Assembly: GCA_025024175.1 (NCBI GenBank)
Contig: QCXZ01000064.1
Location: 46,397,325 to 46,461,324, forward strand
Reading direction: 5' to 3'
Origin: Rhyzopertha dominica
Lineage: Eukaryota; Arthropoda; Insecta; Coleoptera; Bostrichidae
Length of the DNA stretch: 64,000 nt
Shown piece by piece: positions 1,641-62,175 of this stretch (position 1 is the stretch's first letter; the number at the start of each line of letters is the position of its first letter). Below the pieces are notes generated by a model. The model was not told the origin of the DNA. It worked only from the letters and a program-made list of their open reading frames with translations, and did no database searches. Position numbers and translations under genes: made by a program.

Positions 1641-1690
1641 AACCGTGCTGATGAGGCTTAATGAGCCGAAATAGCTGTCCACCTGTTGTT
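1641..1690 (+). ncRNA. Hammerhead ribozyme motif, copy 1 (complete core)
   Basis: The core reads CTGATGA (1648-1654), a helix II hairpin of four perfect pairs GGCT/AGCC (1655-1658 with 1664-1667, loop TAATG), GAAA (1668-1671), a minimal helix III with loop AGCT (1673-1676), and GTC (1677-1679), the expected cleavage triplet. Helix I is AACCGTG (1641-1647) against CACCTGTT (1680-1687); its inner three pairs form, followed by a mismatch that the other copies lack. Known type I hammerheads of Penelope-like elements and retrozymes have the same order and a similarly tiny helix III. Cleavage activity is inferred, not shown. Confidence 0.75.
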
Positions 1691-1887
1691 CTTATACAGG
1701 CAGCAATTTACCAGCAAAATATTTATATATCGGTTTATATGCCTTCCGCAAGGCGGGCTACGGATAGGTAACGGTCTCCACTAGAATCGGGTTGGGTGCC
1801 AATGCCTATAGATGGCATTGTGCCACCCACAAACTGCTACCACAAACATCGCCCACCTGGGGAAGATAGGTATGTACCATTGGGGCT

Positions 1888-1936
1888 ATAGTTGTACTGA
1901 TGAAGCTTAGTAAGCTGAAACAGCTGCCCACGGTTA
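1888..1936 (+). ncRNA. Hammerhead ribozyme motif, copy 2 (cleavage triplet altered)
   Basis: CTGATGA is at 1897-1903, a five-pair helix II (AGCTT/AAGCT) at 1904-1916 and GAAA at 1917-1920. A short helix III with loop AGCT follows. The cleavage triplet is GCC (1926-1928) instead of GTC. It lies 249 bp downstream of copy 1 in the same orientation, so the two behave as neighbouring monomers of a tandem array. Helix I is eroded on the 5' side, so activity is unlikely. Confidence 0.65.
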
Positions 1937-2608
1937 TTTTGATTCAGGCAGCAACGCACAAGCAGTTTTATTTGACAACGATGCTAGATAGTTACTTTAT
2001 GTAAGAGACAGGTACGGTATAATTTTTAGTAATTCATGTCCTGTAAAATGTGTATATCATGAATGAATCCAATTGCATTACTTCAAAATAACACACTTTA
2101 GACGTTTTCTTTTCTGTTTTGGCGATAAAAATTAAACATATTAAAAACAGGATATATGCATACGTGCACTAGTTACCGATTTATAAAAGCTTCAAAGCGC
2201 TCCCTAATTTTTTACAACCATTAGAAGTTTTCTCTCGGACAACTAAATTGAACAAATTATCGACCTAGGTGTTCCCCCTTAATTCCATATTTAATGTTCA
2301 AAAACTAAAAAAAAACAATATTAAATAAATAATTTTAGCAAAGTATTAATTCTCTACAAGAACGCATTATGCATATTACGGTAGTAAGTAAAATACATAG
2401 CAGTTGTCTGATATAGTATAATAATTTTTTTACGAAATGTTAACACGATTATCGATACATTATTATTACATCTTAATAAAATTTTACAAATCTCGTGGGT
2501 AACTATTAAAAATCCTTCGTATTGAGCAGTACTATTGTTTTGAGGAATTTTGCAGAACATTCTGAAATTTTAGAGGCCTTGTAGACCATATTGCGGTGTT
2601 GGTAACGC

Positions 2609-2665
2609 TGATAACCATGCTGATGAGGCCTAATAAACCTAAACAGCTGGCCACGGTTGTTCTGA
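2609..2665 (+). ncRNA. Hammerhead ribozyme motif, copy 3 (degenerate)
   Basis: CTGATGA is intact at 2620-2626, but the GAAA box has become TAAA (2640-2643) and the cleavage triplet GGC (2649-2651). Helix II is eroded. The helix I 3' strand CACGGTT is present at 2652-2658. It sits about 200 bp from the exon 5 donor of receptor gene 1. Copies 5 and 6 sit at the same distance from exon 5 in genes 2 and 3, so these three probably descend from one ancestral intronic copy. Confidence 0.6.
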
Positions 2666-2837
2666 AGTTCTTGTGCAGACAGTACGGCACATGCATATTT
2701 GTCAGTTCCCATATATTGAAGATAGTGCGAATTTTGCACAAGGTTATCTGGTTAACAATGGATTTGCTACCCCTCTTGATATTTGTAATAGATCTTAACG
2801 GTCATGCCATAACTAATAGTTGTAACAAATGTAATAC

Positions 2838-4867
2838 CTCCGAAGAAAGTAGTTCTCCAGTGAAACAGTACAGTGACGGCACGAGAAAGAAGCTGATGAT
2901 AAAGATGATCATTGTGTAGGTCCGGTCCTAGAATATCGGTTGATATTGCTCTAGTCCTAGATATAATAATAACGAACAGGTGCCGACCTTTTAAGTGCTT
3001 CAGAGCTAGAGGCCCTGATTAAAAGCTGGAGGTGGACTGAGTTGAGATTATACAACAATTAAAAATATCAATAAAAAGCCCACAGTAAGCGGTTTCGATA
3101 TTCTTTCCAGTTTTCTTTCGTCTATTGATTTTGCCCTTTTATTAAGGGTGTTAAAAACTATGATATTCTACTTTGTGAACCCTCTGAAATAATGCTAAAA
3201 ATCGGCACCTATACGTGACCTGAATTACAACCTACCTTATATATCATATACAACATAATGGAATAAAACACCATCACCGAAAACAAAGGTATAGTCAATC
3301 TTCTTCCCCCAAATGTTTCAATGAATGTCTTGGTAAACCTAGAAAAAATGTATGCAGATCAAGTCATTTATGGTGCTGGGAAATACCAACCTCGTAAGAT
3401 TGAAATGTTGCCTTATTATGAACAAAATACGTTTCCTTACAAGTTTATCGTGCTGGTACTCATCGTTCTCTTGTAAGCCTTCAGATATTTCTCTTAAGTA
3501 TTCAATCAGTAATCTCATTTGCACATGGCCATGAACACAAAAGTAAAAAAACATAAACGCATAGACATAGACAGCAATACAGGCTAGAACAGCATAAACA
3601 ATAAACACTGTTAGAAAGGTCGCATAGTGAATTAGATTGTTCTTATCCACAATTGGCCATTCTGGATGTATCCCCAAGAAAGCTGCGCTAAAACCCAGAA
3701 TGGCTATGCTGAGTATGCTAATGTAAAAGAGGAACTTGAACATGTCGTTTAGTACATCGATGTCTTTATTGAGTTCATCAGATGCTCGGTCAGTTGGCCA
3801 AAACACTTTGCGCATGATATTTTCCAAACAGATAATATCACCTTCCAATGTAGCTATTAGAATCACGATTACCACTTCCTAGAATAAGACAAACTCATTA
3901 CTTTTCGGTGAAGTTCATTACAAATTCATTTCATTCTAATTGGAAATCATTGGTTTCTTTATTAAAATGTATTTAATCTCTTCTTGTGAAATAAAAGGTA
4001 TTATTTAATTTAATAACAATAAAGCTGGCAACTTTACATGACTCGAGTGATGGCATTCGACCCGAGAGGACGTGCTTTTGAGCGCTATGAAGTGACTACC
4101 TAAGATCTGTGTGTTTGTTTTAATTTGTGATTAAAAAGGACTACAATCGGCACACATTAATTAAAAGTGAACGGTGATTAGGTGTACGTATGTGCCGTCG
4201 TTTGTTGGGCTGGCCACCTAGAAAGGAGAGGGATTCAGCGCCGATCATGCCAACATTAGCCGGTGTTTTGATAGGCAGCTAAGTCTTAGTATAATAATTA
4301 TACAATTATTGTATATAACAGGCACATAATTGTCTCATAAACAATAACAACTTCCCAAATTCAGTATCAGATATGTTATTTTCCTTTAGAATAAATGTAG
4401 CAGCATCCTACAAAATTTTGCCTCTTACGGTGTCGGATGGCAAATAGCCAGAGGAACCTTGGAAGAAACTATTCAAGGACCACAACCAAAATACAAATCA
4501 GAGAAGGAGAAGAAATCATATCGACAACAACAGAAAAGAGTAAAAAGCCAACAACGGTGGAGAGAATCATGGCAAAATCAAACGTAACTGAAGAAAAAAC
4601 AATGGTTAGAAATCGCAAAAGACAAGAAAACAGTAAATAAGGAAGTCCTAAAGTTGTAAACAAACTCAGGCAGCAGCTCGTCCGAGGATAAAAAAGTATC
4701 GGCTGGTTGGATGCCCTAAAAACCTCCCCATTCCAGTCCCCAAATTCCTGTAGCATGCGCTACGTGGGAGCCCGCTAGCAACAAGCGTGTAACCCCTACA
4801 ACCCAGCGTAGACGTAGCCGGCCCGGCGGTATATCCGGGAGCGGCAGAAATGCCTACCGTACGCTGG

Positions 4868-4899
<32 letters not shown>

Positions 4900-7800
4900 C
4901 TAAAGCTGGCAACTTTACATACGAGGAGTAATCTAACACAACAAACAGACTATATTAATTATAATAATTTACTGCTAGTGGCGCCAGAAAATTATTCTAT
5001 GAACGTAGTGTTACAGCTCAATAAAAAGTTCTATTTTACAGCGACAGTAAGCAAGTTTTTCTTCACCTTCAAAATAACCTTTCTTTGGTTACACTTTATA
5101 CTTAGGAACAGTTCAATTATTACTTAATATACTTTATAAAAAAAATTACTTAAAGAACTTTTTTTAATACCTTAAACACCCGGGTCGTACAAGAAGGAGA
5201 CTGACCATGAGCTGCCAGTCGGTTGAAAATCAAATGCTACGTGATCCACTATTGTACTAAATACAAGAAGGATATTTTCTTCACTTTACGAACTAAGCGA
5301 CTAAAAAAAGTTCATGATCTTGTAACCAAAGTTTAATTATATATAATCTTCTGTTTAGTGCAGCTTATAATGTATATGTAAGCGAACAAACACAAGGGCA
5401 CTATAAAAGTAAATTATTATATGCGTTTAGTAAGGTACTAACAATATTTTGTTTTGATGGTAGAGGAGACCTCGTAACATTTCTCGAACGTTGGAGGAAA
5501 TCTGTACCGCTGAAGGCATTATACCGGACCGTCTGTTACCGCATATACCGCACACACGCACGCATGCACGCACGAACGCACGCACGCACGCACGCGTTAA
5601 GGGAGCTCATTTTTAACCATATCGCAGATTACTGCGATTAGTGGAAAATGCCCAATTGTATATTAAATACTGCAGATAAACGGCTAGTGCTAGTCCCGTC
5701 AACCATGCGCTATATTAGGGTTAATTGAATATCATATGGTTTGTGTAATAACTTACGTGAAAAGCCACGACCACAACTGCTGCATCAAACAAAGTTATTG
5801 CATTCCATTCCTTAAGGAACATCATGGTAACATGCGTTACAAAGAACAAGGGCAAATAGAATTTGCACAGTAGTCTAACCCATACGTTGTTGTAATATAA
5901 TAACATTATTTTTCTGAAGAACGGAAAATACTCGACTGAAACAAAGAAAAACGGAATTAGTCTTACTGGGAAAATAAGTGTAAGGATTAGTACTGGTAGC
6001 ATGGTATTTGGTGAAGCATAAAAAAGATATCCAGTTCTCCAACAGAAACAGCAACAGCATGAAAGTTTAACACATACGTAGAATAAATTGTCAAATATGC
6101 CTAGACAGTTATAGATTCAAGTATTTCAATAAACCAAACTTTACTTAATTTAATTAATAGAAGCTATTTCCTAATTTATTACTGGTCAGAAACTACGAGC
6201 TACAGGAAGAGTTGAATATAAAATGCATCACCTTAGTCTGTGGTAAATATTTTGAGATGAAAATTGTAATAAAGATTGTTTCATAAAAATATAGTGTGCA
6301 GAAATACAGGAAGACCGTCATCTTTGAAAATAATCTTAAGTTAAAGTACTTAAAGATCTAATGATTTTTGTGTTTTTTGTTTTCCTACTTTCAATAGTAT
6401 TGAAATTATGGAAGAAATGAGTTCATTTGGCCCATTCTTTATTGTTGTGCATTTTTGGATTCCTACATGCACTTACCTTCAATTGTTTTAAAAAAATGAC
6501 GATTTTTGAAAAATTTCAGGTTTGCAGGATTGTATTCACATCTATATATAAGATGGTAGTCTGCTTTGGTCAGTGGTCAATGAACTCGGTATCCCTACCT
6601 AGGAAGCCTCAACAAAGGCGAAACTAGTCGTGGGGACCGAATAGATTGACCAGAACTGATGTTTATTAATTTTCGTTATAGTTTATAGTTTCAATTCTCC
6701 TGTTGTACCATTTTAAATTCACAATTCTCCAGTATCTGCTGACTTCATTGTTCTTGCAACTTTGTACTTGCTAAAGATGTCGATGTCATTTAGTAAATGG
6801 TCATCTTTGAATATTTTTTAAACGATGTCTTAGTTTAACCTCACACCTGGACTACGTGAGCTAGTTGTTTATAATAGGTGTTATTTTGAGATTTTTTAAG
6901 TTTTACTTTCGGTTATGCATATGTACTTGTAATGTTGCATACCTACACCCAAAAAAATGCTTTCAATAAAATATACAGAGGAATATACCATATGGACACA
7001 ATTTTGCTTTAACAAAATGAAGTGTTATTAATCAGCGTAAACAATACCTAAATCCCATCAAAAACAAAATTGTACAAAAATGCAGGTCTCGTAACGCAGT
7101 TGTTTCACCGTAAAAGGTTCTGAGATCTCATAAAACCAAGTCATTTATTTTAGTTAGTATCTGTGGAAGCACCCATTCAACAACTGTGTTATAAATCGGT
7201 TACTAATTAGTTAGTTATAAATTTATAATGACCGTATCAATATTAGACATCGTTATTTCTATATTTAATGACTTGGCAATCCCACAGCAAAATACGTTAT
7301 AGTATACGTATATAATACGAGCCCAGTCGCATATGTATTGGACCACTTACAGCGAAATACAAAGACACAGTATTTGCAGGGTTTATACCACAGTTTATAC
7401 TAAGAAACTAAGATTCACTTTTTCGTATGTGAAATAACATAGGTACTGATTTGACATAGTAACAAATGCTTGTTGATTGTACAGTTTATAAACAGGCAAA
7501 CATTTATAAACGTGTTTAATTTTCCTGTCGCATATAAGTTGGACCAAAAATGACCCTTATCGGAAAATCAAGTAGCCATGGAAAACAAATTAAGAGGTGA
7601 CAGTTTGTTAATAAGAGTTGACAGTGTTAAGATGCAACATGTGTTTTTGTGTCTTTACTATAATATTTTAGACTATTATTATAGCATTATGACTCGTGAA
7701 ACAGCCCTTTCAAAAGATTTGCGAAATTCAGTAATTTTTTAAAAAGTAAAAGATTAAGTATCACACAAAACTTATATCCTGTTAATTGCGATTTCTGCGA

Positions 7801-9826: not shown

Positions 9827-9828
9827 TA

Positions 9829-12921: not shown

Positions 12922-13471
12922 TACAGGGTCCGCCACTTAAAACTCCCGAGGCTCGTATTATCGGTATTTTTTTAGGTACAACCTTAAGTTATATATGAAA
13001 TTGTAGGTCTTTTTAAACTCTTTAAAAATAGAATATTGGGTGTCCAAATATTTTTTTTAATTATCATATTTTGCAAAGTTAATTTTTGTAAATATTTTTT
13101 GACCTTACCCCGTATAATAAATATTACTTTATAGTTGGATGCCGGCTTTTATTTTCTTCAATTTGTATCTTTACCATGTATGCGTAATTTTTACTCCTTC
13201 TCAGTGAAAAACTATTCGCCGCCATTTTTGTTAATAGGGTTGTTCAGAATTTTTTAAGTGTTATTTTAGTAGCTTATTACGGTACAAATTATGCCTAAAT
13301 ACCCATCGCTGTACACAAAACCCCAAAATTTGGAGTAACTTTTTAATAAATAAAGTACAAAGTTCGTTCTACAGAGAGCGAGAGAGAGAGGCTAGAAAAC
13401 GAAACCCTGCGATGAGGCTAGTTTGGTTTTCTATATCACGCACTAGCCTCATCGCAGGGTTTCGTTTCCTA

Positions 13472-13517
<46 letters not shown>

Positions 13518-13975
13518 AGAACGAACTTTGTACTTTATTTATTAAAAAGTTACTCCAAACTTTGGGGTTTTGTGTGCAGCGATGGGTATGTAGGCATAAT
13601 TTATACCGTAATAAGCTACTAAAGCAACACAAAATTCTGAACATGTTTCTGAAAAATGGCGGCAACTAGTTTTTCTTGTTTTTTCACTAAGAAGGAGTAA
13701 AAATTACGCACACATGGTAAAGATACAAATTGAAGAAAATAAAAGCCGGCATCCAACTATAAAGCAATATTTATTACACGGGGAGAGGTTAAAAAATATT
13801 TACAAAAATTAACTTTATTTGCAAAATATGATAATCTGCAAAAAAAAATTTGGACATCCAATATTCTATTTTTAAAGAGTTTAAAAAAACCTACTATTTG
13901 ACATAATAACATAAGGTTGTACCTAAATAAATAAAGAAAATACGAGCCTGGGGAGTTTTAGGTACTAACTATAGT
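12922..13975. mobile_element. Fold-back element with ~520 bp arms
   Basis: The left arm (about 12937-13422) is the reverse complement of the right arm (13442-13962) with scattered mismatches and small indels. The innermost stem 13391-13422 with 13442-13473 is almost perfect, around a loop of about 19 nt. GA repeats on the left pair with a longer TC run on the right (about 13477-13510). The outer left end begins TACAGGGTC, like many mariner-type MITEs; the matching right end is eroded. Transcription through it would give a long double-stranded RNA hairpin. There is no protein coding. A related single arm lies at 57857-58060. Confidence 0.85.
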
Positions 13976-15883: not shown

Positions 15884-17606
15884 ACATCCTCCTCTACTTC
15901 ATCTCTCCATCTTTCCCTGGGTCTTCCTCATCGTTTCCTTCCTCCAATTTCACTCTTCAGTATCCTTTTTGGCACTCGTTCTTCCGGCATTCTCACTATG
16001 TGTCCCAACCACCCCAACCGCTGGGCCTTTACGATACCCACTATATTTGGTTCTTTATAAAGTTCTTGCAGTTCATAGTTCGACCTTCGCTGCCACATTC
16101 CATCCACCAGTTTTCCTCTAAAGATTTTTCTTAACACTTTTCTTTCCCACGCGCACAACATTGACTGTTCACATTTTTTCAACGTCCACACCTCACTTCC
16201 GAATGTAACTATTGGTCTAATGACAGTCTTATAGATTTGTGGTTTTAAAGATCGAGATATTACTTTATTGTACATTACATTTCTCAAAGCCATAATACAT
16301 CTATTACCCGCAAGCAGCCTTGTTCTTATTTCTTCACTTATGTCTGGCTTTCTTGTAAACACTGTACCCAAATACACAAAACGCTCCACCTCCTCGAAGT
16401 TGTACACCTTGCCACTCCTAAGCCTTATTGTTAGCTTCCTTCCCATATTGTATTCGTCATCAATCCACTTCATGTATTTAGTTTTTGCTTCGTTTAATTC
16501 CAAGCCCATTTCGGTTGCAGTTGTTAATAAGCGCTCTAACACTGTCCGCAATTCCGGGGAACTGCGAGTTAATATAGCGATGTCATCCGCAAAAGCCAAA
16601 CACTGGTGCCTTTTGTGGTACACTAGACCTGAGCGACTTATGTTGGCTTTTCTCATGACTTTTTCTAACATTACATTAAACAGAATGGGCGATAACGGAT
16701 CCCCTTGCCTTAAACCTTCTCCAACTCTAAACTTTCGTGACAGCTTACCATTAAACTTTACTCTATTTTCAGTGTTTTGCAAAGTCATTTTTATCAATCT
16801 TATTATCTTGCTAGGTACTTCGAATTCTTCCAAAGCTTCATACAGTTTATGCCGTTTCACTTTATCGTATGCTTGTTTAAAATCTATAAACACTATTTCG
16901 GTGTGCTTTTGATGTTGATAGCTTTCGGCTTGTATTTCCCTTAAAGTATAGAGTTGGTCTACAATTCCTCTTCCGCCGCGAAAGCCGCACTGATACTCTC
17001 CTACTATATCACCCATTCTGTCTCCGAGCCTGCCCTTAATGCAAGCTGTCAATATTTTGTACCCAATATTAAGTAATGCTATTCCTCTGTAGTTTTCGCA
17101 CTCCTGCTTGTCTCCTTTCTTGTATATTGGGTACAAAACAGCCTCTGACCAGTCGCAAGGCAGTTTTTCTTGTATCCAGATTTCCTTAATGAGTTTATGC
17201 ACCTGCTCCAGTAAATATTCTCCGCCATACTTAAACATTTCAGTTGTAATATTATCGCCTCCTGGACTCTTATTATTTTTCATGTCTTCCAAAACTCTTT
17301 TATTTCATCCTTGTCCGGTGCTTCTTCCTCCACTCTGTTGTTCAGCCCACTGTTTATTTGTTGTCCTTCAACTGGTACATCACTGTTTAATAATTCATTA
17401 AAGTGTTCAACCCATCTTTCTAGCATTTCATTCTCGTCTGCAATTAGCCGCCCTCCCTTATCTTTTAGAAACAAAGTTTTTGGATGAAACCCTTGCTTCT
17501 CATTTCTTATACCTAAGTACAGCTTTTTAACTTCTTTATTCTTAAACTTCTCCTCAAGAGATCGGACTATTCCTTCATTATATTTTCTTTTCTTTTCTCT
17601 GAGCAC
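15884..17606 (-). pseudogene. LINE ORF2 reverse transcriptase part
   Basis: This copies element RNA into DNA at the nicked target. The long open segment 15928-17292 (454 codons) holds the RT core: NYRGIALLNIGYKIL, GFRGGRG, FIDFKQAYDKV, LRQGDPLSP and the catalytic FADDIAIL with both Asp present. The C-terminal domain has the GWLGHIVRM pattern and then GRKR. A TGA at 15925-15927 interrupts before GRPRERWRDEV. The upstream linker (17280-17606) is in another frame, so there is a frameshift near 17285. The RT domain looks intact but cannot be made from this copy as one protein. Confidence 0.88.
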
Positions 17607-17618
17607 TCTTTTACATTT

Positions 17619-18812
17619 TTACCTTTCATTTGAGTATTTCATCTTTGCACTTTCTGTCTCACTTTGAAGCATTTCTATTCGTGATTGCTGTCTACTTTTT
17701 AAAACCTTTTTACACTCATCATCGAACCATCCATTACCTTTATTACCCATATTCTTTATCCCGCTGCACCCCTGCAATGCTAATTCCATTACTTCCTTAA
17801 GCGTATTCCAATTTTCGTCCACGTCTTTGCTTCCTTGTAAATTTTTCAATTCTAAGCACAATTTAGGTGTATATGTATTTCTATCACTAATGTTGTTCAA
17901 TCTTCTGCATACTTTATCTTGTATTTTCTTTCTTCTTTCATTCTTTTGTCTCGGAATTTCTTGTGAAAGCTTAACTCCTACGATATAATGGTCTGAGTCG
18001 GCATCGGGGCCTCTGTAGCTTCTAATATTTTTGATGTTCTTTTGATCTACCATTTCAATGAGTACATGATCTATTTGGTTTACATAACTGCCATCGGGAG
18101 CTCTCCATGTACCTTTATAGATGTCTTTCCTTTGGAAGTCTGTACTTTTAATAATTAGACTTTTTCCTTCGCGAAATCAATTAAAAGTCGCCCATTTTCG
18201 TTAGTCTCATTGTGTTTGCTGTATTTTCCAATTACAGGTCTATATATAACTTCTTTTCCAATTTTTTGCATTTGCATCNCCCAAAATTATCTTTAAGTCA
18301 TATTTTGGTATGTTTTCGTATTCTCTATCCAGTATACTGTAAAATTCTTCTATTACATCAATATTTTTATCCTCCGATGGTGCATGAATATTTAACAAAC
18401 TAAGTTTCTGGTATTTTCCTTTAAATCTCATATAACACATTCTATCTGATATAGCCTTGAATTGTAGTATTGCTCCTTTCAGTTTTCTATTTACCATGAA
18501 CCCCGTGCCCAAAAACCTGCTTCGTCCACCACTATTAAAGAAAATATAATCCTGTAGCTCTATTACTTCATCTCCAATTTGTCTAGTCTCCTGAATCGCT
18601 ACTACATCACAATTAAGTTTTTTGCATTCATTGTTGAGATGCTTAAGTGCACCTTCCTCACATAATCCTCTTGTATTCCAGGTGGCTATTAAAGCATTCT
18701 CTCCTATCTTTTGCAGCATTGCTATCTTTTCTCTTGTATCATTTTGGTTTCTAACTCCACAATTGCCATTCATTTTCCATAAATTTAAACCTGTTTCATT
18801 ATCCTTGTCCAT
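17619..18812 (-). pseudogene. LINE ORF2 endonuclease domain, frameshifted
   Basis: This APE-like endonuclease would nick target DNA. Segment 18240-18812 contains IATWNTRGL, AIQETR, NIHAPSED and IILxDANAK in the right order; the x is an N base at 18279. The final part is in segment 17619-18053 with DADSDHYIVGVKL, the SDH catalytic motif. The two are separated by about 180 bp with frame breaks. All catalytic landmarks are visible, so decay is recent. Confidence 0.85.
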
Positions 18813-18859
18813 AGCTGTGGTCGAATTTTGTTTAACCTCGGCTTTTATTTTATTGCACT

Positions 18860-19678
18860 TTAGTTTTTTGGCATGTCCTTTGTTGATTGAACCTCTTCCA
18901 GTGCGCTCTTGTCTCTATTCCATATATATTTCTTCCCATCCACGGTTATTTTGTGATAACCATACCATACATTTTTTCCTTTACTTCTTTCTTCGTGGGC
19001 TATTTTCCTAATACTTCTATCTATATTTCTTTCCTCAGGAGTCAAATCGTTGTTTATGAATATCTTTTTATCCTTTAAAGCCTTCAACTTTTGCTTATTT
19101 TTCATCACCTTCAATTTATCCTCCTTTGTGTTCAACTCCACTAAGCATATTTTTGGTCCCAATTTGTGAGCTGCTTTTGCTTTAATTTCTAGTCCCATAA
19201 CATCTCTTACAAGGTTTTCTACTGTTTCCTTTATGACAGCATTTTCTTCTGTAATTATTTCCATGCCCGTTACAACTATATTGTTTTCTCTCTTAGCCTC
19301 TTCCAGTTTGTTAATTCTCCAACTCATTGATCTGACCTCTTCTTTCATTTGCATATATTCCTTTTTAATTTCCTTATTTTCTTTGATCAGTGTTTCGTTC
19401 TCTAATCTTAAGCTTTTTATTTCCTCGGCGAGCTTATTTTGATCCTTTCCCATCTTTTGTACTTCTGCCGTCAAACTCTGGACTTGCGTGCTTAAGTTTG
19501 ACATCATATTTAAGACCTTATCCAGTTTGTCCTCTGAGATGTTGGTTGCTTTGGCTGGCGACCTTTGCGTCTTCCTACTTTTATAAAACGGGCTTTCTTC
19601 TTCCTCCCTATTCCTCTTCTTGCTCCCCTCGTCAGTGGAATAATCGTCGCTATCCATATTTTTTCGCGCTGCGCTCAT
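18860..19678 (-). CDS. LINE ORF1 protein (coiled-coil RNA-binding type)
   Basis: A 272-codon open frame encodes the chaperone-like ORF1 partner of the retrotransposon. An acidic and basic N-terminus of about 45 residues is followed by a long coiled coil (residues about 50-128, rich in L, E, K in heptads). Next comes a globular part beginning NNIVVTGM, the pattern seen at the start of the RNA-recognition-like domain of LINE ORF1s, and a basic tail with VWYGYHKITVDGKKYIW. No zinc knuckle is present. It is intact as read, from the first ATG with a stop 47 bp before ORF2. Confidence 0.82.
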   Translation of the reverse strand: MSAARKNMDSDDYSTDEGSKKRNREEEESPFYKSRKTQRSPAKATNISEDKLDKVLNMMSNLSTQVQSLTAEVQKMGKDQNKLAEEIKSLRLENETLIKENKEIKKEYMQMKEEVRSMSWRINKLEEAKRENNIVVTGMEIITEENAVIKETVENLVRDVMGLEIKAKAAHKLGPKICLVELNTKEDKLKVMKNKQKLKALKDKKIFINNDLTPEERNIDRSIRKIAHEERSKGKNVWYGYHKITVDGKKYIWNRDKSALEEVQSTKDMPKN

Positions 19679-19700
19679 TTGGCTTCTTATTTTATACAGT

Positions 19701-42996: not shown

Positions 42997-43702
42997 TTAA
43001 AGTTTTAGAGGTTTAGCCTCATTAAAGTCATTATAAGATAGAAAGATATCATCGACACAAAGAGCAACAATAACAATGGCATTTTCTGAGTTTTTAAAGA
43101 AAATACATGGTTCAATATCAGACTTTTTGTAATCCATTTTAACCAAGATCCTAAGTACATTTTCATACCATAATCTGGAAGACTGTTTCAAACCATACCT
43201 TTTCTTAACGGGCATACCTTATTTTCACAGCCAGGCTTTTCAAAGTCTGGTTGACACATAATATATCCTCATCAATGTCGCCATTAAGAATCGCTGTAGC
43301 CATAGCAAGTCACACTCTTAAATTGCTGACACGAATTACAGAAGAGAAAACTTCAGTATAATCAAACCCATATTTATGAGTAAAGCCCTTTGCGACTAAA
43401 TTAGCTTTAAAAATTACAATGTCTACATTTTCGTTCTTTTTAATTTTGAAAACCCATTTGTTTTTGACATTGTTTTTGGGTGGCTTATCAACTAGTTCCC
43501 AAGCACTATGAATTTTGAAAGCATCTAATTCTCTTTTAACGACTGATTTCCACTCATTTTTACTAGGACAAGTTAATACTTCCGAAACGCTAGCAGGCTC
43601 AAAATCACTACTTGCAGTAGGCATACCAAAATCAGAAACATTCATGAGGTAGTCATCATATTTTTTTCTTTTGTACTTAACGTTTTCGATACTTATTGAC
43701 AT
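42997..43702 (-). pseudogene. Copia reverse transcriptase fragments
   Basis: Segment 43310-43702 has the start of the Copia RT: NEWKSVVKRELDAF, WELVDKPP, NKWVFKIKKNE and LVAKGFTHKYGFDYTEVFS. After a break, 42997-43215 has YGLKQSSRLWYENVLRIL and VALCVDDIFLS, in which the catalytic pair is intact. A frameshift near 43220-43310 and a stop near 43000 separate the pieces from each other and from RNase H. Confidence 0.82.
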
Positions 43703-44104
43703 TATCCAAGTTCGAGTCAGATTCTTGGCTTAAGCTGCAGGGTGGATCGAGAATTTCTTCATCAGGATCGGAACTGTCTCTCTGCTTTAGTTCCCCTGAT
43801 TCTTCTTCTTCAACTTCCTCAGAATGTAAATGCACCTCGGAACATGAAGTTCTATCTTTCACCATTTCATTTGATGCATCTCTTTCAGCACCTGCTAATG
43901 GAAGTGATGACTTATCTGCCACTTGCAGCTCCTTTTCAAAAAAAAATAACATCTCTGGCATTCTGGAGGCGATTATTAACGGGATCGAGCAGTCTGTAGC
44001 CCCGACTGTTTTCAGAATAATCAACTAATATGTATATATTTCTTTCTATATAATGCAGTATTTGCTGTTTCTGCCCACATCTGTTTATCGCATTTACATT
44101 CAGC
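43677..44104 (-). pseudogene. Copia integrase tail / acidic linker
   Basis: On the minus strand up to 44104 the DNA reads MWAETANTALY-like sequence, the end of the Copia integrase core, then LLDPVNNRL. An acidic linker follows (SEEVEEEESGELKQRDSSDP), common between integrase and RT in Copia elements. It is in several frames and cut on its 5' side by the GC-rich insertion. Confidence 0.6.
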
Positions 44105-44640
44105 CATCATTGCTCGAACTTTCCCCATGGTTATAGCTGAACGGTTCGTGCTCAGCCTGTGTGATAGGTAACCTTTTATGCGACCGTAATAAGGTGGTGG
44201 AGTATAGGGGAACTAGATGTTCGCGATTGGTACGAACGCCGCGGAAACTAGGAGAAGCGTCTTGACCGTTGTGGTGTGAGATGTGCAGGACAACGACCAT
44301 CGACCGTTGTCAGTGGTGGTGAAATTGAGCGGTGATAATAAAATAAAAGAAACGATCGTCGTCGACAGGCTGGTGGTTTCCTGGGTGGAGCCCTGCTGCC
44401 TACGAGCATCTGCACCAGGCCTCAGGGAGGCCATTTCCTGGTGAAATCGGCGGGCGTTTGGCTTGCCGCCCGAGGAGTTCAGTCGGCGCCGGCGTGGGTA
44501 CGCCAGCGGAGCAGCGGACACCTGCCCTCAAGGCCAGACGAGACGGTTGCTGGGTTGATGGGCATTTGAATTGCATCGGTGGAGTACGGGGAGGCGCAGA
44601 CTTGCCGTTGCGTGGCGTCACAGGTGACCCCTGTATATTA
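44105..44640. other. GC-rich insertion inside the Copia element
   Basis: This 540 bp stretch is far richer in GC than both flanks, and the Copia integrase frame stops at its edge. It has no recognised protein and no obvious terminal repeats. It may be a truncated element, or foreign sequence joined by misassembly. Confidence 0.5.
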
Positions 44641-44774
44641 CGTAGACTTGAGTAGACTTGTTCGTTGCTGGGTTATTAGCTGCCATATTTTGCTTCTTAT
44701 CGTGGCATCATTGCATCGATTCTTATATTATATTAGTATAATTGGCATAGTGTTTTATTTTACGCCTACCGAAC

Positions 44775-44996
44775 TCACACCCCGACATTACGTTTATTCA
44801 TACTTGAACAAAATTTCAAAACGTACCTGTTACAACTTGACTCCAACAAAACGCTTTTCCCTATTCCATGTATTGGCAGTTTTGAATTGTTTGCAACAAC
44901 TATTTCTTGGTGTGATTCAGTCTTTCGTAAATTTGACATTAACTCCTTGCAACCTGTCATGTGTGACGATGCCCCCACTGTGAACGCACCATTCAT
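44775..44996 (-). pseudogene. Copia protease fragment, active site altered
   Basis: The pattern VGASSHMTGCKEL and then EIVVANNSKLPIHGIGKS fits the Copia protease region. The usual active-site DSGAS reads TVGAS, so the catalytic Asp is gone. It would have cut the Gag-Pol polyprotein. Confidence 0.75.
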
Positions 44997-45639
44997 TGCA
45001 GCCCAGGAGACAGTAGAGATTTTCGGTACTTATTTTTCCAGTCAGCAAACATCGGTAGAATTATTTGGTTTGTTATTTTAAGCAAAATTCATATATATGT
45101 AAAAAATACAAATACAGCCAGACGTGTATTTGATATGAAATTATAGTATTATTTATCATGTGACAAATTTTCAAATCCAGGAAAATAAGAGCAAAAATTT
45201 TGTAATTCTTACGATTTTCGAGATGCCGTCAGACTCATTTGCCAATTTCGTAAATCAGCCATACTTACTTTTGAATATGATACGTTAAATTTCAAGCATG
45301 AGAAAATAAGGGTTAAGGATTTCAAAAACCGGGCAGTTATTCCATCCGCAAATTTTCAGCCAGACTGAATTTTCTCCACTTGTGATGTGCCAGACTGTTA
45401 CTACCATTAATAAAAATAACTCACTTTAATTATTGTGAAACATTTATGACTAGGAAAATAATTGGACTTGATTTTTTATCTAGTGAGCCCGTCCGGAAAT
45501 TTTAGGCAAACTCACAAATTGTTGTTTTGTGTCACCATCCGAACGAACTATTTGATATTCATCGTCTAGTATTATAAGTACAAAAGAATTCACTGCCTCC
45601 TGGGCTTTATTTGGTAATTTTACATCGGAAACTGTAAGT

Positions 45640-46187
45640 AGAGCTTTTTTCCCCTCTTTGAAGTATTTTTTTCTAGCAAACCTACTTGCGTTTTCTGATG
45701 CTTCTGCATTTCTTTTCGTACGGACATTTACTTTTATAATGTCCTTTTTATTGCAACAACTGAATCACCATCTAGTGGTGTCCCTGTTCCGCCACCTCTT
45801 CTCTTGCAGCGGCTTTGATTTCACGAAATTACCATACATACATACATTACCATAGGTTCGTATTTTTCTGTTAAACCTTGTAACATTATGACACCTAGGA
45901 ATTCATCCTCTAATGGGTTTCCTATCAATGATGATTTGATTTATTTTTGGACTCTTATCGAGCATAAACTTCATAAACAAGTGGAGACGAAGGTGTAGCC
46001 CCTTATCTTCAAAAGCTTTTTCTAGCGCCTCCCATGCTTCAAAAGCCTCCATTATATGAGGATATGTTGCTTTATCAAGAGCATTATTATTTTTGATAAA
46101 GCTTTCTTTTCTTGACGTTTGTTTTGATCGGATGTGGTTGCAAATTGATTTTGAACACAACTCCACAGGCTTTAAGACTGCCATCAT
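45640..46187 (-). pseudogene. Copia gag fragment
   Basis: The open part 45903-46187 contains IMEAFEAWEALEKAFEDKGL, the conserved Copia Gag (UBN2-type) pattern, and LHLFMKFML. It lies just downstream of the primer site, as expected for the first gene. Frames below 45900 are broken, and no zinc knuckle was confirmed. Confidence 0.75.
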
Positions 46188-46458
46188 TTGGAACTTCCAG
46201 TCATTATAATTCTCACGCCCCTTTAACTTTTCAATTAGTGCTGAATCACCGGCTGCAACAGCTTATTCCAACTAGAATGACACTTAGAACGATTTATATT
46301 TAGCGTTCTGGGCCCATAACCATTTTGTTGGAATTCAGAGCAGCAAATGGTACACAGACGTTGAAAAAACTCTTTATTTTAAGACAGAACTTTTTTACAT
46401 AACATGAATGTTTTGCAATGACAAAACTATTTTGATTATTATTTTTGTAACGCTTCCA

Positions 46459-48789: not shown

Positions 48790-49560
48790 GACCGAACAAC
48801 TAGTTGCGATCACAACTGAACAGCTACAGCAGCTACTTACTGGCGTAAAGATAGCGCCCACACTCGCCATGCAGCCACGTGGAAATTTTTCGATGTGCCA
48901 GTCGCGGTTTTCGTGTAGCAAGGGTGAGTCAGTAAAGCCTTTATTAGTGCAATAAGTGTATTTAAGGATTGTGTCAACATGACGGACGAATACGCCATTA
49001 AGGGATTACCCATGTTATTAGACGGCGCTGCAGCTACGTGCTGGCAAGCAGCCAAATGCAGAATGGAGACATGGTCTGACGCGCTAAATGGGTTGCAACG
49101 TCTTTCAAGAATTATTCTTTACGGTACAAAAGGACCAGCCGACGGACACCTTCGTCGACAACGCTAGGGCACTATTGTCACATTTACCAAGCCAGCCACC
49201 ACTACATGTTCAGCACCAGTTAGACATGATATACGGATGGCTAAATCAAAAAATAAGAAAAAGGATTGCCCGCGAGGACTTCCAGGACTTCGACAAGCTA
49301 CGAACACTTGCTAGAGCCGTGGAGGACAGTTACAGCGAGGTTAGTAAGAGTGACCCCGCTGTAAATTTTGCCGTAATTTCGGTCATACTCAAGCAGAGCG
49401 TCGTAAATATGAACGCGCTCCGAAATTTCGTGTCGCGTTCCCGAGAAATAGCCAGCAATGGCACTGAACTGTCTCACCGACCGTTACGTCCTATAAGTGC
49501 GGAATTCCGGGTTACGTAACTAGTCAATGTCAACGATGTAAACCCTAGCATTCACGAAAA
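48790..49560 (+). pseudogene. Gypsy gag remnant
   Basis: A first part begins MTEQLVAITTEQLQQLLTGV at 48788. Later pieces contain LLDGAAATCWQ (about 49020) and ILYGTKGPAD, then LPPLHVQHQLDMIYGWLNQK-like sequence in the 49088-49519 segment. At the end the zinc-knuckle area reads SYKCGIPGYVTSQCQRCK-like in a shifted frame. It is a Gag capsid and nucleocapsid remnant with two or more frameshifts. Confidence 0.7.
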
Positions 49561-49581
49561 TGTGACGCCGAAACTTCTCGC

Positions 49582-49974
49582 TTGGAACTTTTGTACAATG
49601 AACTGGAAGAAGACTACTCCTGCGCCGCAGAAAGGCCGTTACTTGAAACATCAGTCGCGAACATTACGGTACTAGAATGTGTAGATACAGGTGCCAAACG
49701 AAGTGTAGCAGAAGAACGTCTCCGTAAACATTTAGAAAATGAGGGGCTTCCCTACAGGACGAATGAGGTGCAGCAAGTGCTGGCCGACGGTGTCGTGCGG
49801 TCCGTACAGACACAAATTTACGACACTAACGTAGATTTCGTAGCCATACCAGCGCATCCTGAAACAAAAACTCTTTTAGGAGTTGATTTTATCGCTAGTG
49901 CAAACATACTTATAGACATTGCGAAAATCCAAACAAGCTGCGTGTGTCAACGCGTTACAGGTGTTACGGGCTGA
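49582..49974 (+). pseudogene. Gypsy protease domain
   Basis: The open stretch contains ITVLECVDTGAKRSVAEERL, with the aspartic protease Asp-Thr-Gly triad intact, a flap-like region, and KTLLGVDFIASANILID, the second conserved LLGxDF patch. It is in frame for 131 codons, then breaks at 49972 before the RT. Confidence 0.8.
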
Positions 49975-50148
49975 TGAAGGCACTTCTGTGTCCAAAGACA
50001 ATCGCAATAGATTAGAGCAGTTACTGACGGAGAATCAGTACGTCTTTTAACCGTGTAAGGATCCCACTCCATATGCTGAACACTGCATAAATTTGCAACT
50101 TGATGAAATAGTGGATGTACCAGCTAAGAAGGAAATTTTACAAGGAGA

Positions 50149-50640
50149 TTGGAGCAGATGGTGGCAGAAGGGATTATTGAAGAATGTGAATCTCCATACG
50201 CTTCACCTGTTGTCTTGGTTCGCAAGGAAAATGCCAATTATAGGGTATGTGTAGATTATAGAAAACTTAATGCAATAACAGTTCCAGATATATATCCACT
50301 ACCCCGCATAGAGAACCTGCTACATTACTAGTCGCAAACATCTTTTTTGTCAACGCTCGATTTACGTTCCTGTTACTGGCAAGTAGCAATGCGCGAATGC
50401 GATCGCTTTCCACGAATGCCGTTTGGATTACGTAATGCTGGTGCCACTTTTCAAAGACGAATGGACAAATTTCGCGCCGGTCTACCCGATGTCGTGCTGC
50501 TCGCATACTTATACGATTTGATAATCATATCGGACTCTTTCGAAAAGCATGTGTCGGACTTACATACACGCTGTGTTTCAGAGACTAAGAAGTTTTCGCT
50601 TGTGCACGAATCGGGACAAGTGCGTATTCTCTAGTAAACG
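50149..50640 (+). pseudogene. Gypsy reverse transcriptase, catalytic pair mutated
   Basis: Landmarks in order are IIEECESPYASPVVLVRK, RVCVDYRKLNAITV and DIYPLPRIENLL, then a stop at 50329, STLDLRSCYWQV, and MPFGLRNAGATFQ. The catalytic motif normally YLDD reads YLYD near 50510, so the first Asp of the pair is Tyr. It stops again at 50632-50634 before HLG-like sequence. Confidence 0.85.
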
Positions 50641-50652
50641 CATCTCGGTCAT

Positions 50653-51372
50653 GTGATCACACCCGAATGCTTGAGCGCAGACCCTGATAAGACGGCCGCG
50701 ATAACTGCCATGAAGGCACCCAAAAATACGAAGCACGTTAGAAGCTTCTTACAGACGTGTTCATGGTTTCGGCGTTTTGTGCCAAATTTCGCCGCAATAT
50801 CTAAGCCGCTCAGCGATCTGACCAAGAAGGACGTGTAATGGGCCTGAGGATCTGATCAACAGGAGGCTTCCGATACCCTGAAAGCAGCTCTTACGACAGC
50901 GCCTATTTTACGTCAAGCTGACCCCTCCTTGCCATTTATATTGAGAACGGACGCCAGTGCCCACGCCTTGGGAGCATGTCTACTCCAGGGGGAGGGAGCC
51001 TACGAGAGGCCTGTTGAGTATGCCAGCCGATTATTAACCTCCGCCGAATGCAACTACTCCACTAAAGAAAGAGAAGCTCTAGCGGTAGCGTATGCGGTAA
51101 AAAAATTTCGTGGCTACATCGTAGGAAGCCAGATACGGGTTGCAACTGACCATCAGCCGCTCCGGTGGTTGATGTCCCTGAAATCTCCAAGTGGTCGTTT
51201 AGCCAGATGGGCACTGGAACTTCAGGTGTTCGATCTGCAGATAGAATATACGCTTGGCCGATGTAACGTGGTGGCTGACACATTCTCGAGACCGCCCTGT
51301 GATGAACTGACCCAAGAACACTGTGATCTTTGTTTGATTTCAGTGCTTTTACCGACCCAGACCGCTAAGTAG
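50653..51372 (+). pseudogene. Gypsy RNase H and connection domain
   Basis: Segment 50653-50838 has VRSFLQTCSWFRRFVPNFA, the connection region. After a stop, 50929-51372 has the RNase H: ILRTDASAHALGACLLQ, YSTKEREALAVAYAVKKF, TDHQPLRWLMSLK and ADTFSRPP. The catalytic D, E and D are visible. It degrades RNA in RNA-DNA hybrids. Confidence 0.82.
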
Positions 51373-51539
51373 TTACGGAAGGAGCCGCTCGAAGATCCAG
51401 AAGTGAAGAAAATCATCGACTAACTCGGGAGCGCGGGGGACGGCGTGGACTATAAGCGCTGGACAGACCGGGGTTTCGTTATGAATCTCGGAGTCCTTTA
51501 GCGTTATAGCCCCGACTTCGACGCAGAAGACCCACTAGT

Positions 51540-52342
51540 TAGACACCACGGTGTCGACAAGACGATGCATTCCATTTCCCGCCGCTACTACTAACCGACG
51601 ATGAATCGTGACGTCATCGCCCATATCAAGCACTGCTTAGCGTGTCAGCGATACAAACCTGACAACAGAAAACCTGCAGGGCTATTACAAACTCCAGCAC
51701 CGTCTCAGCGCTTTGAGACCATATCTATTGACTTGTTCGGGCCGCTTCCAAAAACCACCGACGGTCATCGCTGGATATTCAGAATGGGTAGGATTGTTCG
51801 CAATGCCGTCTTCTACCGCAGTCACCTGTTCCAAAATACTAATAGACGAGATCGTTTTGCGATACGGTACCCCACGCCGTGTGATTTCCGACAACGGGGT
51901 GCAGTTTGCATCTGCCGTTATGCAGCAGGTGGCCCACTGCCTTGGCTTCCACCAGGTGCTGACTCCCGTGTATCATCCAGAAGCCAACCCGGTTGAAAGG
52001 AAGAACCGGGACGTGAAGGTTTGGGGGGCCATTCTTAGTGAGGGTAACCATAAAGGATGGGCAGCGGCATTGCCGTCAATCAGATTTGCCTAGAACACGG
52101 CAAGTTGTAGCTCAACTGGTTTTACGCCAGCCCAACTATGTTTTGGACGAGAACTGCGAACGACAGGTGAAGTACGTCGAGATATTGGATAGTGAAAATG
52201 TCGCCAGCGAAATCACGCCTTACTTACGTATTGTGGAAAGAAACATACGACTGGCTATGAAGCGAAAGGAAAACGCTTTTCTAGTTTTTCTTGTTTTAGT
52301 TGAATCCCGCCCGGGACGGACGCGGGATTCAAAGGGGGAGGC
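51540..52342 (+). pseudogene. Gypsy integrase, frameshifted
   Basis: The HHCC region ends in HIKHCLACQRYKP. The core starts FETISIDLFGPLPKTTDGHR (first Asp). In the next frame (51713-52093) are RVISDNGVQFASAVMQQVA (second Asp) and HPEANPVERKNRDVK (catalytic Glu). A stop after SIRFA and a further frame cover TGFTPAQLCFGRELR. All catalytic residues are visible. A frameshift near 51780 breaks the protein. Confidence 0.85.
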
Positions 52343-52586
52343 TGTAATACCTAGTACCCTATCATGTGATGTGTGTCCCATCTCAATACGGCAGTCAACG
52401 CTGCACGGGAGTAACAGAGATCGGCCTACCCTAGTCTGTCAATCTGACAGAAAAAGGTTTAAGTTAAATAATTTGTTCTGTCCCTGTTAGTGCATTCCAT
52501 GTTTCTCAATTACATTAGAGTGTAGTTCTGACGGGCATTTTATTGCTCCTCATCTTCCCCTCGCGTTACATATGGGGTTAAAAGTT

Positions 52587-55330: not shown

Positions 55331-55375
55331 AAAACAACATGTCATCGACAACAACCACGGAAGCCTTCAAACCAA
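55290..55375 (+). repeat. Segment shared with the Copia 3' region
   Basis: It reads 'ataaccaacgtgggaa' and 'catgtcatcgacaacaacc' and matches the minus strand of 42090-42170. It follows immediately after the BEL RT relic. Confidence 0.6.
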
Positions 55376-58060: not shown

Positions 58061-58164
58061 GGTCTTCATAAGCTTTCCTTTTGGCTTTGCTTTCTTAGGT
58101 AACAGAAACGCCGGGTGATTAAGACATGATTGTGAAGTATACTGGTTACTATAGTCGTACTGGC

Positions 58165-59137: not shown

Positions 59138-59803
59138 TCATTCCGATACCGACTGTATCAAAGTGAATACGCTGTAAAGATTTCGCAAAGTCTGAAAAAG
59201 AAATGATTATGTTCTTATAGTATATCGATACTCTTTTTGTAAAACATACCCACAGTATAGCTGGAATTCTGGTGGTCAACGGTGGAAACACGTATACATT
59301 ACGTTCTTTTTGGCTAAAAAGCAGAAACAGCAAAAGCATTTGCCTGTTACTTCTATCCCAGTTGTACCAGTCACGTTTGTAAAGTTCTCATGTGAAATTC
59401 TCGAACTGCAACATTGTACAATTCATTACACTCCAGGCTACTAGAAGTAAGTTCTGGAAGAGGTCATAGACTGTTTATATTTATCAAACTATGTAAAATG
59501 CTGCATTTAATTTACTTCGTTTGCGAGCTTGGGCTATAAGTGCAATAAGATTCTTTTAGTTTTTTAAAGTGGAAATATTTTTTTATTTCAAAACAAATAC
59601 ACAGCTAAAAGTAATAATAGGTAACACTGTGTTATGTAGTAGCTATTCTGGGAGGCAAATTTTTGATGCCTCGGCTACCGAACATGTCATTCTGCATCCG
59701 CAAAGTTGGTAAACTGTTTTGCTGATCTCAATGTTATAATACTAAAAGGTTCCTAGGCAGCATTTTGAAACCTCATTGATAATCTTGAAGAATAAAGTAG
59801 AAC

Positions 59804-60340
59804 TGATTGATTGATTGATTGAACCAGCGCATGGTCAGCATTTCTGTCACTCCTGGAGATATCGCCGGGCCTGTCGTCTACGCTGGGTTGGAGGGGTACA
59901 TGCTGATTACTAGTAGTGCGACTGCCTAGCGCATGTAAAGGAAATATAAGGACCGAAATGGAAAGGTTGTATAGGTACATTCATTTTCTTTGAATGTTTT
60001 TTCTTTTGCTGCTGTTGACATCATTGGTCCACTTCAGAGTAGCACGATTAATTTTTTGTTCCTTATCATTTCTAGCTATTATTCTTCGTTCTTCCTTGAC
60101 TTCTGAATTATCCTCTCTATAGTTGTTTTCGATGTAAAGTACGGTCTTCCTTTTTTTCGTTGGTCTCCACTTAGTTTCCAGGTATTCCTTAATCTTCCTT
60201 ATCTCCTAGACGTGTCCTTAGTATTTCGTCGCGAATATCTCTATTCCTTTTACGATAGGTCTTCCATTCAAGAGTTCCGCTTTTGCCGCACGCTTGATAT
60301 GTATTTGGTTGAATAACATTTTTGCCTTAGATTGCTGGGG
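59804..60340 (-). mobile_element. Non-LTR retrotransposon 3' end, (AATC)n tail
   Basis: On the minus strand this has a coding-like tail rich in K, R and E (60340-60000), then a 3' UTR and a terminal AATC repeat at 59804-59822. The UTR matches 4750-4900 in opposite orientation. It is inserted in intron 5 of receptor gene 3 in the same orientation as the gene. Confidence 0.6.
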
Positions 60341-60954
60341 TTTTTCTGAGTTGTATCTTGGCCTCAACAGTTTCTTCCAAGTTATTTCCGAACTTATTAT
60401 TGGCTTTTAATATATTTGCTTCTAGATTATAGTTGGGCGGAGGTCCGGATCCGCAGGGTGACCTTGCGGACCCGGTCTGTCGGACCCGCTCCAATGGATG
60501 AGAAAGTAAATGAAACCAATTACATATTCGGCGCCGATTCTTTAGCGGAACTATTGCAGTGGGTATTGAAGGCATAGACTTAGTTGGACATTCAATACTT
60601 TATAACTATATTCTACTGCAATGCCATTTGTTCACATTAGGCCAGTGTAATAGCATTTACCGGTAGATGTAAAGCTTTGCATATTATATATAGAGCCTCA
60701 AGTAGGAAAGTAGATAACCTACTTCAGTAGGGAGAATGTATGAAATGTTTACATCTAATACATTCTAGATTGCACTAAGGAAACGATTTATGCCATTTTG
60801 CAAGTGCCATAATCATAACCTATCCTAACCTACTATTAAGCAGAACTCTTACTATTTGTGAGAAACATTTCAAGCAATCACGATATCATTGTTTTTTGCA
60901 ACAGTCATAATTATTAAATGAGTAAGTATAATTCGTTTTTTTTAACTAAAATTC
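60341..60954. other. Intron DNA, nothing recognised
   Basis: A GC-rich patch at 60430-60500 (ggaccc and gcggac repeats) stands out. No gene or repeat family was identified. Confidence 0.4.
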
Positions 60955-61610
60955 AGTTAAATTATTGTTGTTATTGCATTCGATTTGCGATAAACTTACA
61001 CGGATTTAACGTAAACCAACCTAATCAAGAGTATTGAACGAATAACAAGCAAACATTCAAGTTACACTACACCGGTGTAGTTNTTCACAAATCAAAATAG
61101 TTTTTCTACAATGCATCAAACGTGTCCACATCAAAATTTCGGAAGTGTCAAAGACATAGCCCACCCATTATTTTATACGCGAAAGTAGTGAAATCTTCTG
61201 TAGAGAGCTGACTTCTGTTATGTAATTGACCAAATAGCAATTCAATAAAATGCTGATCCAAATTTTGAAGCGGAAGTTAAATTTTCATACTAAACACCTG
61301 AAAGATACTGAATTTATTTCATTGGATTCGAACAATTAATTCCAAATTGGATGAAATATTTGTCCCTCGTCTCGCCTGCTACAGGCCCTCTCATCAGGCA
61401 GTGACCCAGACCTCGCTACCGTCAATTCCAGCATCCTCTCTTTACCGTATTTTCATTTGTTGTCGCGAATTTTCTTGTATACGGCTCATTTTCTTCTCCG
61501 TTTTTTCACTGCTCTTCTCTCAACCTTCTCGTTCTTCTTCTCAATTTGATTTTTAACATCTTCTATTTTTGATTAAATTTCATTTCTCATTTCTCCACCG
61601 TTAGAACCCA
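60955..61610. repeat. Duplicated intron-5 block, copy B (pairs with 1-880)
   Basis: It matches the left edge of the window in the same orientation and lies between exons 5 and 6 of receptor gene 3. This places base 1 of the window inside intron 5 of gene 1. Confidence 0.65.
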
Positions 61611-62089
61611 ATTTCTAGCTGCACCTGTTGGTTTCTTCGCATCTCGCTTGATGTGTTTACTATTCGTTTCTGTTATAACCGCTAAATGGGCTTGCAATTT
61701 TTTGTCAAAGGTATAAAATTATGAGTAATTAGTAATTCTTGAACAAAAGGGGCTCGACGTCGCACTTGCAGGATCACGACTTTACCCTCAGGAAAACATG
61801 AAACGGTGCGCCGACATTTTATCCCACATCAAATGTAACACATTTTTCTGTTAAAATCTATAATAGTTTTTAAATTCCCACTTACAACTTTTATTATAAC
61901 TTGTGAGTATTCTTTTAACAAAATCACCTCATAAGTGAGTAATTAGTGCAACCAAGCACGCTAAGTTGTATCTATCAATTAGCGAAAATGAAAATTAAAT
62001 CTTAATATAAAAGAATAAACGTTACATCTTAGTTATCTTGCACTTCCGCTGATGTACACCGTATACAAGGGAAGCCAAATCTGCGCGCC
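61611..62089. other. Intron 5 of gene 3, shared with 34020-34180
   Basis: From about 61930 to 62060 it resembles gene 2 intron 5 sequence at 34020-34180. No other feature is seen. Confidence 0.45.
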
Positions 62090-62092
62090 GTA

Positions 62093-62175
62093 TTGTCTGC
62101 ATCAGCACTACAACCGTACTGTCGAGACTTGATAAGCCGAAACAGAAGTCCACGGTTGTTCTGGGGCAGACAGCA
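62093..62175 (+). ncRNA. Hammerhead ribozyme motif, copy 6
   Basis: Helix I AACCGTA (62112-62118) with CACGGTT (62151-62157) forms six pairs plus one mismatch. An outer helix GTCTGC (62095-62100) with GCAGAC (62166-62171) extends it. The core box is CTGTCGA (62119-62125), helix II is mostly paired, GAAA is at 62139-62142, and the cleavage triplet GTC at 62148-62150 is intact. It is orthologous in position to copies 3 and 5 relative to exon 5. The altered core box makes activity doubtful. Confidence 0.7.

Follow-up and report, generated by a model that had tools for sequence, protein, structure and literature searches.

Decayed hammerhead ribozymes in an odorant-receptor gene cluster of Rhyzopertha dominica point to a retrozyme-like mobile element

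Introduction

What kind of element leaves ribozyme-like motifs at three related receptor genes, always in the same orientation, when no single motif is whole? The question is raised by a stretch of 64,000 nucleotides from the beetle Rhyzopertha dominica (GenBank assembly GCA_025024175.1, contig QCXZ01000064.1, positions 46,397,325 to 46,461,324 of the forward strand; hereafter the window, numbered from its first letter). An earlier, sequence-only reading had proposed that six related plus-strand sites, at 1641, 1888, 2609, 35320, 35615 and 62093, are hammerhead ribozymes (HHRs) in receptor introns, of the minimal type I kind found in Penelope-like elements and animal retrozymes. We find this interpretation partly supported. 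With a probability of roughly 0.7, the sites are remains of a small, decayed, non-coding, retrozyme-like mobile element of R. dominica whose ancestor would have cut itself as a double hammerhead.

In the published models, animal type I HHR repeats are transcribed, cut themselves to monomers and are circularised by a host ligase, and their copying back is tentatively attributed to Penelope-type enzymes (PMC7229834, PMC7761336). Such repeats measure 150-450 bp with GC below 50%, and insects are among the named hosts of retrozyme-like repeats (PMC7229834). A retrozyme-like HHR repeat is thus a known kind of element. Its occurrence in R. dominica is apparently unreported: no report of hammerheads in this species appears among the open-licence matches listed, and the main text of the R. 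dominica genome paper contains neither 'ribozyme' nor 'hammerhead' (PMC8956072).

The consensus of six broken copies is a complete hammerhead

All six sites are present on the plus strand, confirming that the family exists. Aligned, the copies yield the majority consensus ATAACCGTG-CTGATGA-GGCTTAATAAGCC-GAAA-CAGCTG-TC-CACGGTTGTT, which is a complete type I HHR: helix I pairs as AACCGUG/CACGGUU, CUGAUGA, helix II and GAAA are all in place, and helix III consists of an A-U and a C-G pair with the loop AGCU, cleavage being predicted after GUC. Run over 200 Mb of first-order random sequence, a strict descriptor that this consensus satisfies matched nowhere. A covariance model built from the copies at 35320, 35615 and 62093 recovered those at 1888, 1641 and 2609 (E 7.5e-11, 4.2e-9 and 1.5e-8, respectively) and no further plus-strand site in the window at E <= 10. 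On the minus strand it gave four matches, three of which fall on copies used for training, an effect of the near self-complementarity of the rod described below; the fourth is weak (6089-6124, E 0.77). A repeat search that used no motif placed five sites in one family (D10) and grouped 35615 with three of those in another (D8), so that the two together link all six by sequence alone. The six-site family of a decayed type I HHR element is real.

The numbering of the hammerhead core and the roles of its letters are well established, and every copy departs from the full type I definition (core plus helices I, II and III, with helix I open). With spans given from helix I to helix I, copy A1 (site 1641; 1641-1687) keeps CUGAUGA, GAAA and GUC intact and has a broken helix I with 4/7 pairs. 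In A2 (site 1888; 1890-1935), U16.1 is replaced by C and the triplet is GCC. A3 (site 2609; 2613-2658), paralogous to B2 and C1, carries both G12 to U (UAAA) and U16.1 to G (GGC). B1 (site 35320; 35339-35384) combines G8 to U (CUGAUUA) with U16.1 to C, giving the triplet CCC. B2 (site 35615; 35633-35679) and C1 (site 62093; 62112-62157) bear different letters at one catalytic position, A6, which is C in B2 (CUGCCGA, triplet AUC) and U in C1 (CUGUCGA, triplet GUC). Judged by these letters, none of the six copies looks able to cut. As the consensus is complete, we read the copies as the decay of a once perfect motif, and with five of six cores broken we take them for fossils.

The proposed type I family of the retrozyme or Penelope kind therefore stands as a consensus and not as any single copy. 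The triplets that had been read (GUC at 1641 and 62093, AUC at 35615) and the helix III loops (AGCT in four copies, AGAA in 35615 and 62093) are correct. The sites themselves were rightly placed, except that 35320, 35615 and 62093 had been made to begin 18-19 bases too early, and the CUGANGA-like box attributed to the whole family has its exact form only in 1641, 1888 and 2609.

Comparison with chance and with database models

Taken singly, the sites lie close to what shuffled sequence gives and so prove little. The motif ACCGTGCTGATGA, allowed up to 3 mismatches, matches the window 12 times where 10.5 matches are expected; CTGANGA...GAAA also matches 12 times, against 1.72 expected, and family sites account for 2 of the 12. 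A loose descriptor found 38 matches at up to 3 mismatches (mean 33.9 in 10 shuffles), 8 at up to 2 (2.6 in shuffles) and 3 at up to 1 (0 in shuffles). One of these last three (55804) lies outside the family, and the descriptor misses 2609 even at 3 mismatches.

The check that the sequence-only reading had suggested, a search with the Rfam hammerhead models, came out negative: Rfam has no match in the window at its gathering cut-offs. When short stretches were scanned at a lax threshold, Hammerhead_3, a type III model, scored 24.5 bits at 1641 (cut-off 48.5) in a different fold, Hammerhead_1 scored 15.2 bits at 35615 and 13.6 bits at 62093 (cut-off 34), and Hammerhead_HH9 scored 14.4 bits at 35320, over 35329-35422, again below its cut-off; no hammerhead model was listed at 1888 or 2609 in these scans. 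One might then suppose that the likeness is accidental and that a repeat with a long hairpin happens to display hammerhead-like letters, as the Rfam result and the near-chance single sites would have it. We consider this very unlikely. The consensus has all the core letters and three helices, a combination absent from 200 Mb of random sequence, and HHR repeats in dimers of the size seen here are a known kind.

Patterns were also run on other sequence collections. The strict family pattern found no contig in IMG/VR, and one pattern scan of prokaryote contigs gave no match. A looser pattern drew 12 contigs from IMG/VR, all of them with at most 2 contiguous pairs in helix I and at most 3 in helix II; given this poor pairing they were taken for chance.

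A separate plus-strand site at 6581-6651 is a possible second, unrelated decayed hammerhead. It scores 26.3 bits with Rfam Hammerhead_HH9, whose cut-off is 52 (E is 0.029 when the whole window is scanned and 9.9e-5 on a short stretch), and has good helices I and II, GAAA and GUC, with CUAGGAA in place of CUGANGA. The covariance model of the three family copies did not recover it.

The copies lie antisense to related odorant-receptor genes

All six copies are antisense to receptor genes and would therefore be absent from the receptor pre-mRNA. The genes were identified through the exon at 62809-63393, whose single protein match at E <= 0.001, among 176 candidates compared, is 'Odorant receptor Or93, partial [Rhyzopertha dominica]' (80% identity, 84% coverage). 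Mapped onto the window, the Or93 sequence identifies gene B (28059-41397, minus strand) as Or93 itself, in six pieces of which three are 100% identical and the others 98.2%, 93.9% and 88.1%, the lower values occurring where the alignment overruns exon ends. Its intron at 28324-35856 holds B1 and B2. Two paralogs match Or93 more poorly. Gene C (59141-63360, minus strand) holds C1 in an intron from about 59406 to 62357, and gene A (2838-5936, minus strand) has A1-A3 located past the donor of its exon 4. Exon 4 is followed by a GT donor in genes A, B and C alike, and genes B and C also have an AG acceptor in front of exon 5; of the splice sites of gene A's HHR-bearing intron, the window includes just the donor, and the exon after exon 4 was not found within it. 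The claim that the sites occupy receptor introns accordingly rests on Or93 mapping and GT/AG sites for genes B and C, and on the donor only for gene A.

By protein family, the 7tm_6 domain of Pfam came just under its cut-off on the gene A exon only (25.3 against 25.8 bits), and no Pfam family matched the exons of genes B and C. Three aligned pieces of gene C contain in-frame stops, which gives it a pseudogene-like appearance; many odorant-receptor pseudogenes are described in R. dominica by its genome paper (PMC8956072).

Three of the sites share their surroundings. The stretch 2612-3924 is 80.3% identical to 35632-36919, 2613-3901 is 81.6% identical to 62112-63416, and 35584-36898 is 83.6% identical to 62060-63418. 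By these alignments 2609, 35615 and 62093 are one insertion copied along with the gene. To the left of the HHR, 2609 is scarcely like the other two (A-B 22/51, A-C 25/54). The A dimer may stem from a separate insertion or belong to an older trimer.

The motif has changed like the neighbouring intron

Copies that were duplicated with their gene provide an internal clock for change in the motif. Between genes, HHR identity is 31/45 (A-B), 33/45 (A-C) and 40/45 (B-C), neighbouring intron identity is 81/111, 97/130 and 112/138, and exon 4 identity is 91/99, 93/99 and 91/99, in the same order. HHR and intron divergence do not differ (p 0.70, 0.85 and 0.26), and a motif that changes like intron DNA speaks against a kept function.

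We also counted alignment cells off consensus, which are not independent and, in the outer arms, loosely aligned: 7/66 in the core, 29/210 in the rest of the HHR, 57/192 in the 5' outer arm and 36/224 in the 3' outer arm. Within the HHR, selection on the core was looked for across the six copies and none was found (core against rest, Fisher p 0.68). Compared with the outer arms, the core is better kept (7/66 against 93/416, p 0.03), as is the whole HHR (36/276 against 93/416, p 0.002). The sequence-only reading had named as its grounds for giving it up the lack of any covariance-model match above threshold together with, in genome-wide copies, a core no better kept than its flanks. The first was found with the Rfam models; the second was found within the HHR, across the six copies in the window, but not against the outer arms.

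Might the HHRs then have been kept for a job, for instance to cut or fold a transcript read antisense through the receptor locus? Besides the smaller departure of the HHR from consensus than that of the outer arms, in cells that are not independent, this idea can draw on a shared position, the nearest copy lying 179 (A), 177 (B) and 200 bp (C) from the exon 4 donor, and on rod pairing that is mostly retained in B and C. The shared place is explained by gene duplication, and between-gene change in the HHR matches that in the neighbouring intron. Since, moreover, the core is mutated in every copy but one, with B2 and C1 differing at the same catalytic position, we regard a kept function as scarcely credible.

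Units, rods and dimers fit a double-hammerhead retrozyme

The copies form two tandem pairs. From the presumed cut site of A1 to that of A2 is a plus-strand unit of 249 nt (1680-1928, AT 53.0%), and from that of B1 to that of B2 one of 295 nt (35378-35672, AT 50.8%, 3 Ns). The two align over their full length with a mean column identity of 78%. Both fall within the 150-450 bp given for HHR tandem repeats and below 50% GC, the 295-nt unit barely so and with its 3 Ns; two units are seen and no longer array. Both are too short to encode a reverse transcriptase. At each end of the B element stands one copy of a direct repeat of about 118-123 bp (~35300-35422 and ~35595-35717), so that the element is about 1.4 units long.

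Helix I of the B and C copies is prolonged into a rod with the HHR at its tip (plus strand; B1 35300-35422, B2 35595-35717, C1 62071-62195), the first two rods being the two direct repeats of the B element. The rod comprises 37 pairs in helices 1-4 of the tested structure; taking all 44 pairs together, pairing is seen in 87.0% of 131 cells, compared with 26.0-46.6% when the arms are slid. Calling these HHRs 'minimal' is hence apt for helix III and not for helix I of the B and C copies.

Eukaryote dimer hammerheads depend on tandem copies and on a stem III loop that is palindromic (PMC6466107). The consensus ACAGCUGU of helix III is self-complementary and the copies occur as two dimers, so that in its ancestral form the element has what a dimer hammerhead needs. 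The unit lengths of 249 and 295 nt together with the palindromic helix III loop fit a double-hammerhead retrozyme. In simple energies that leave out tertiary contacts, the written double hammerhead reaches -36.9 kcal/mol per strand pair and one single hammerhead -10.5 kcal/mol.

Several results, to which belong the Rfam outcome and the better keeping of core and HHR relative to the outer arms, weigh against a retrozyme-like element. In the same energies, the consensus monomer favours another fold (-18.7 against -10.5 kcal/mol as a hammerhead), and the double hammerhead is less stable than a duplex folded without constraint (-36.9 against -45.8 kcal/mol). Circular folds of the 249- and 295-nt units are not unusually stable on the plus strand (z -0.72 and -0.84), and unusual stability was likewise not found on the minus strand (z -1.62 and -1.67). 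Covariation in the rod is weak, with two-sided changes at 3 pairs, which 37 of 500 shuffles equal. The rod is kept only in the B and C copies and is mostly gone in gene A, two copies have the non-palindromic AGAA loop, and within the 64-kb window no copy was seen beyond the Or93 gene cluster.

Relation to Penelope elements and other known systems

The main rival is that the copies are pseudo-LTR (long terminal repeat) remnants of a Penelope-like element that has lost its coding part, in which case the HHRs would be the small ones of Penelope type and no separate retrozyme would be needed. Small type I HHRs are known from the tandem pseudo-LTRs of Penelope elements, with possible dimer cutting (PMC7761336, PMC11167929), and Penelope is among the main retrotransposons of the R. 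dominica genome and common in it (PMC8956072). The weak helix III of Penelope HHRs is nearly as short as that of the six copies, and the repeat at both ends of the B element is pseudo-LTR-like. The beetle copies differ in that their helix III has one C-G pair plus loop, and in both two-HHR elements the region between the HHRs is of one non-coding kind that could not accommodate a reverse transcriptase. Nor was any Penelope coding sequence found near them, no Penelope/GIY-YIG family appearing in the 10 that were scanned of 35 open reading frames (ORFs) of at least 110 aa, a partial scan that leaves 25 others and shorter frames aside. We hold the Penelope explanation to be on balance unlikely.

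We favour the retrozyme-like element, which resembles metazoan non-LTR retrozymes (PMC7229834): a type I HHR, dimers, units of 249 and 295 nt with GC just under 50% and no reverse transcriptase, and an insect host. Unlike those, the beetle copies are decayed, span about 1.4 units and form no long arrays in the window. The class is further marked by many dispersed genomic copies, by expression as linear and circular RNA and by the lack of an LTR, a primer binding site and a polypurine tract; the beetle element is known by its sequence, position and predicted structure. It also recalls the amphibian HHR_Amex1 and newt satellite hammerheads (PMC7229834) in its very short helix III, palindromic tetraloop (ancestrally AGCU in the beetle) and expected dimer; it differs in its insect host, its sequence, the 330-bp unit of the amphibian, and AGAA in 2/6 copies. 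The pDo500 satellite hammerhead of Dolichopoda cave crickets is likewise an insect, repeat-borne HHR, but one of satellite DNA.

In the active ancestor, the plus-strand RNA would have formed a long helix I rod bearing a type I HHR at its tip. Adjacent HHRs would have joined in twos by base pairing between their self-complementary ACAGCUGU segments in helix III. Cutting after GUC would have set free a unit of about 250-295 nt; once circularised, this unit would have been copied back with the aid of a helper, which may have been a Penelope-like enzyme. The element would have inserted antisense in an odorant-receptor intron before the gene was duplicated, and its copies would afterwards have drifted at the intron rate.

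A more specific version, which we find doubtful, is that a beetle retrozyme lineage works by double hammerheads only, with an amphibian-like short helix III, an AGCU loop, and rods ending a 1.4-unit element; such a lineage may still have active members in other parts of the genome, and the satellite families RD rep6 and RD rep7 may be based on it. These measure 272 and 294 bp with AT of 61.4 and 59.5% (PMC8956072); their lengths are retrozyme-like and their AT lies above the 53.0 and 50.8% of our units, and the link is a lead. Young copies, if there are any, would make it possible to test whether RNA circles are produced by double hammerheads in insects. The locus as it stands points to a mobile element carried by a ribozyme in a species for which the main text of the genome paper mentions neither ribozymes nor hammerheads, and it shows that the consensus of decayed copies can reveal such elements even if every copy fails Rfam.

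Other features of the window

Two long inverted repeats, at 12935-13963 (about 1.0 kb) and 32425-33324 (about 0.9 kb), look like foldback or MITE-type (miniature inverted-repeat transposable element) elements; plant and animal microRNA models in Rfam match the first below cut-off. Retrotransposon remains lie at 15928-19699 (minus strand), 43310-46262 (minus strand) and 49088-52490 (plus strand). The ORF family scan found RVT_1 with upstream endonuclease-like ORFs, RVT_2, and RT RNase H with an integrase core among them, and the assignment of element types is our own reading. A tandem array with a period of about 163-175 and a repeated GCCGCATGCTAGGTTTTGTAGGCGG core occupies 39873-40541.

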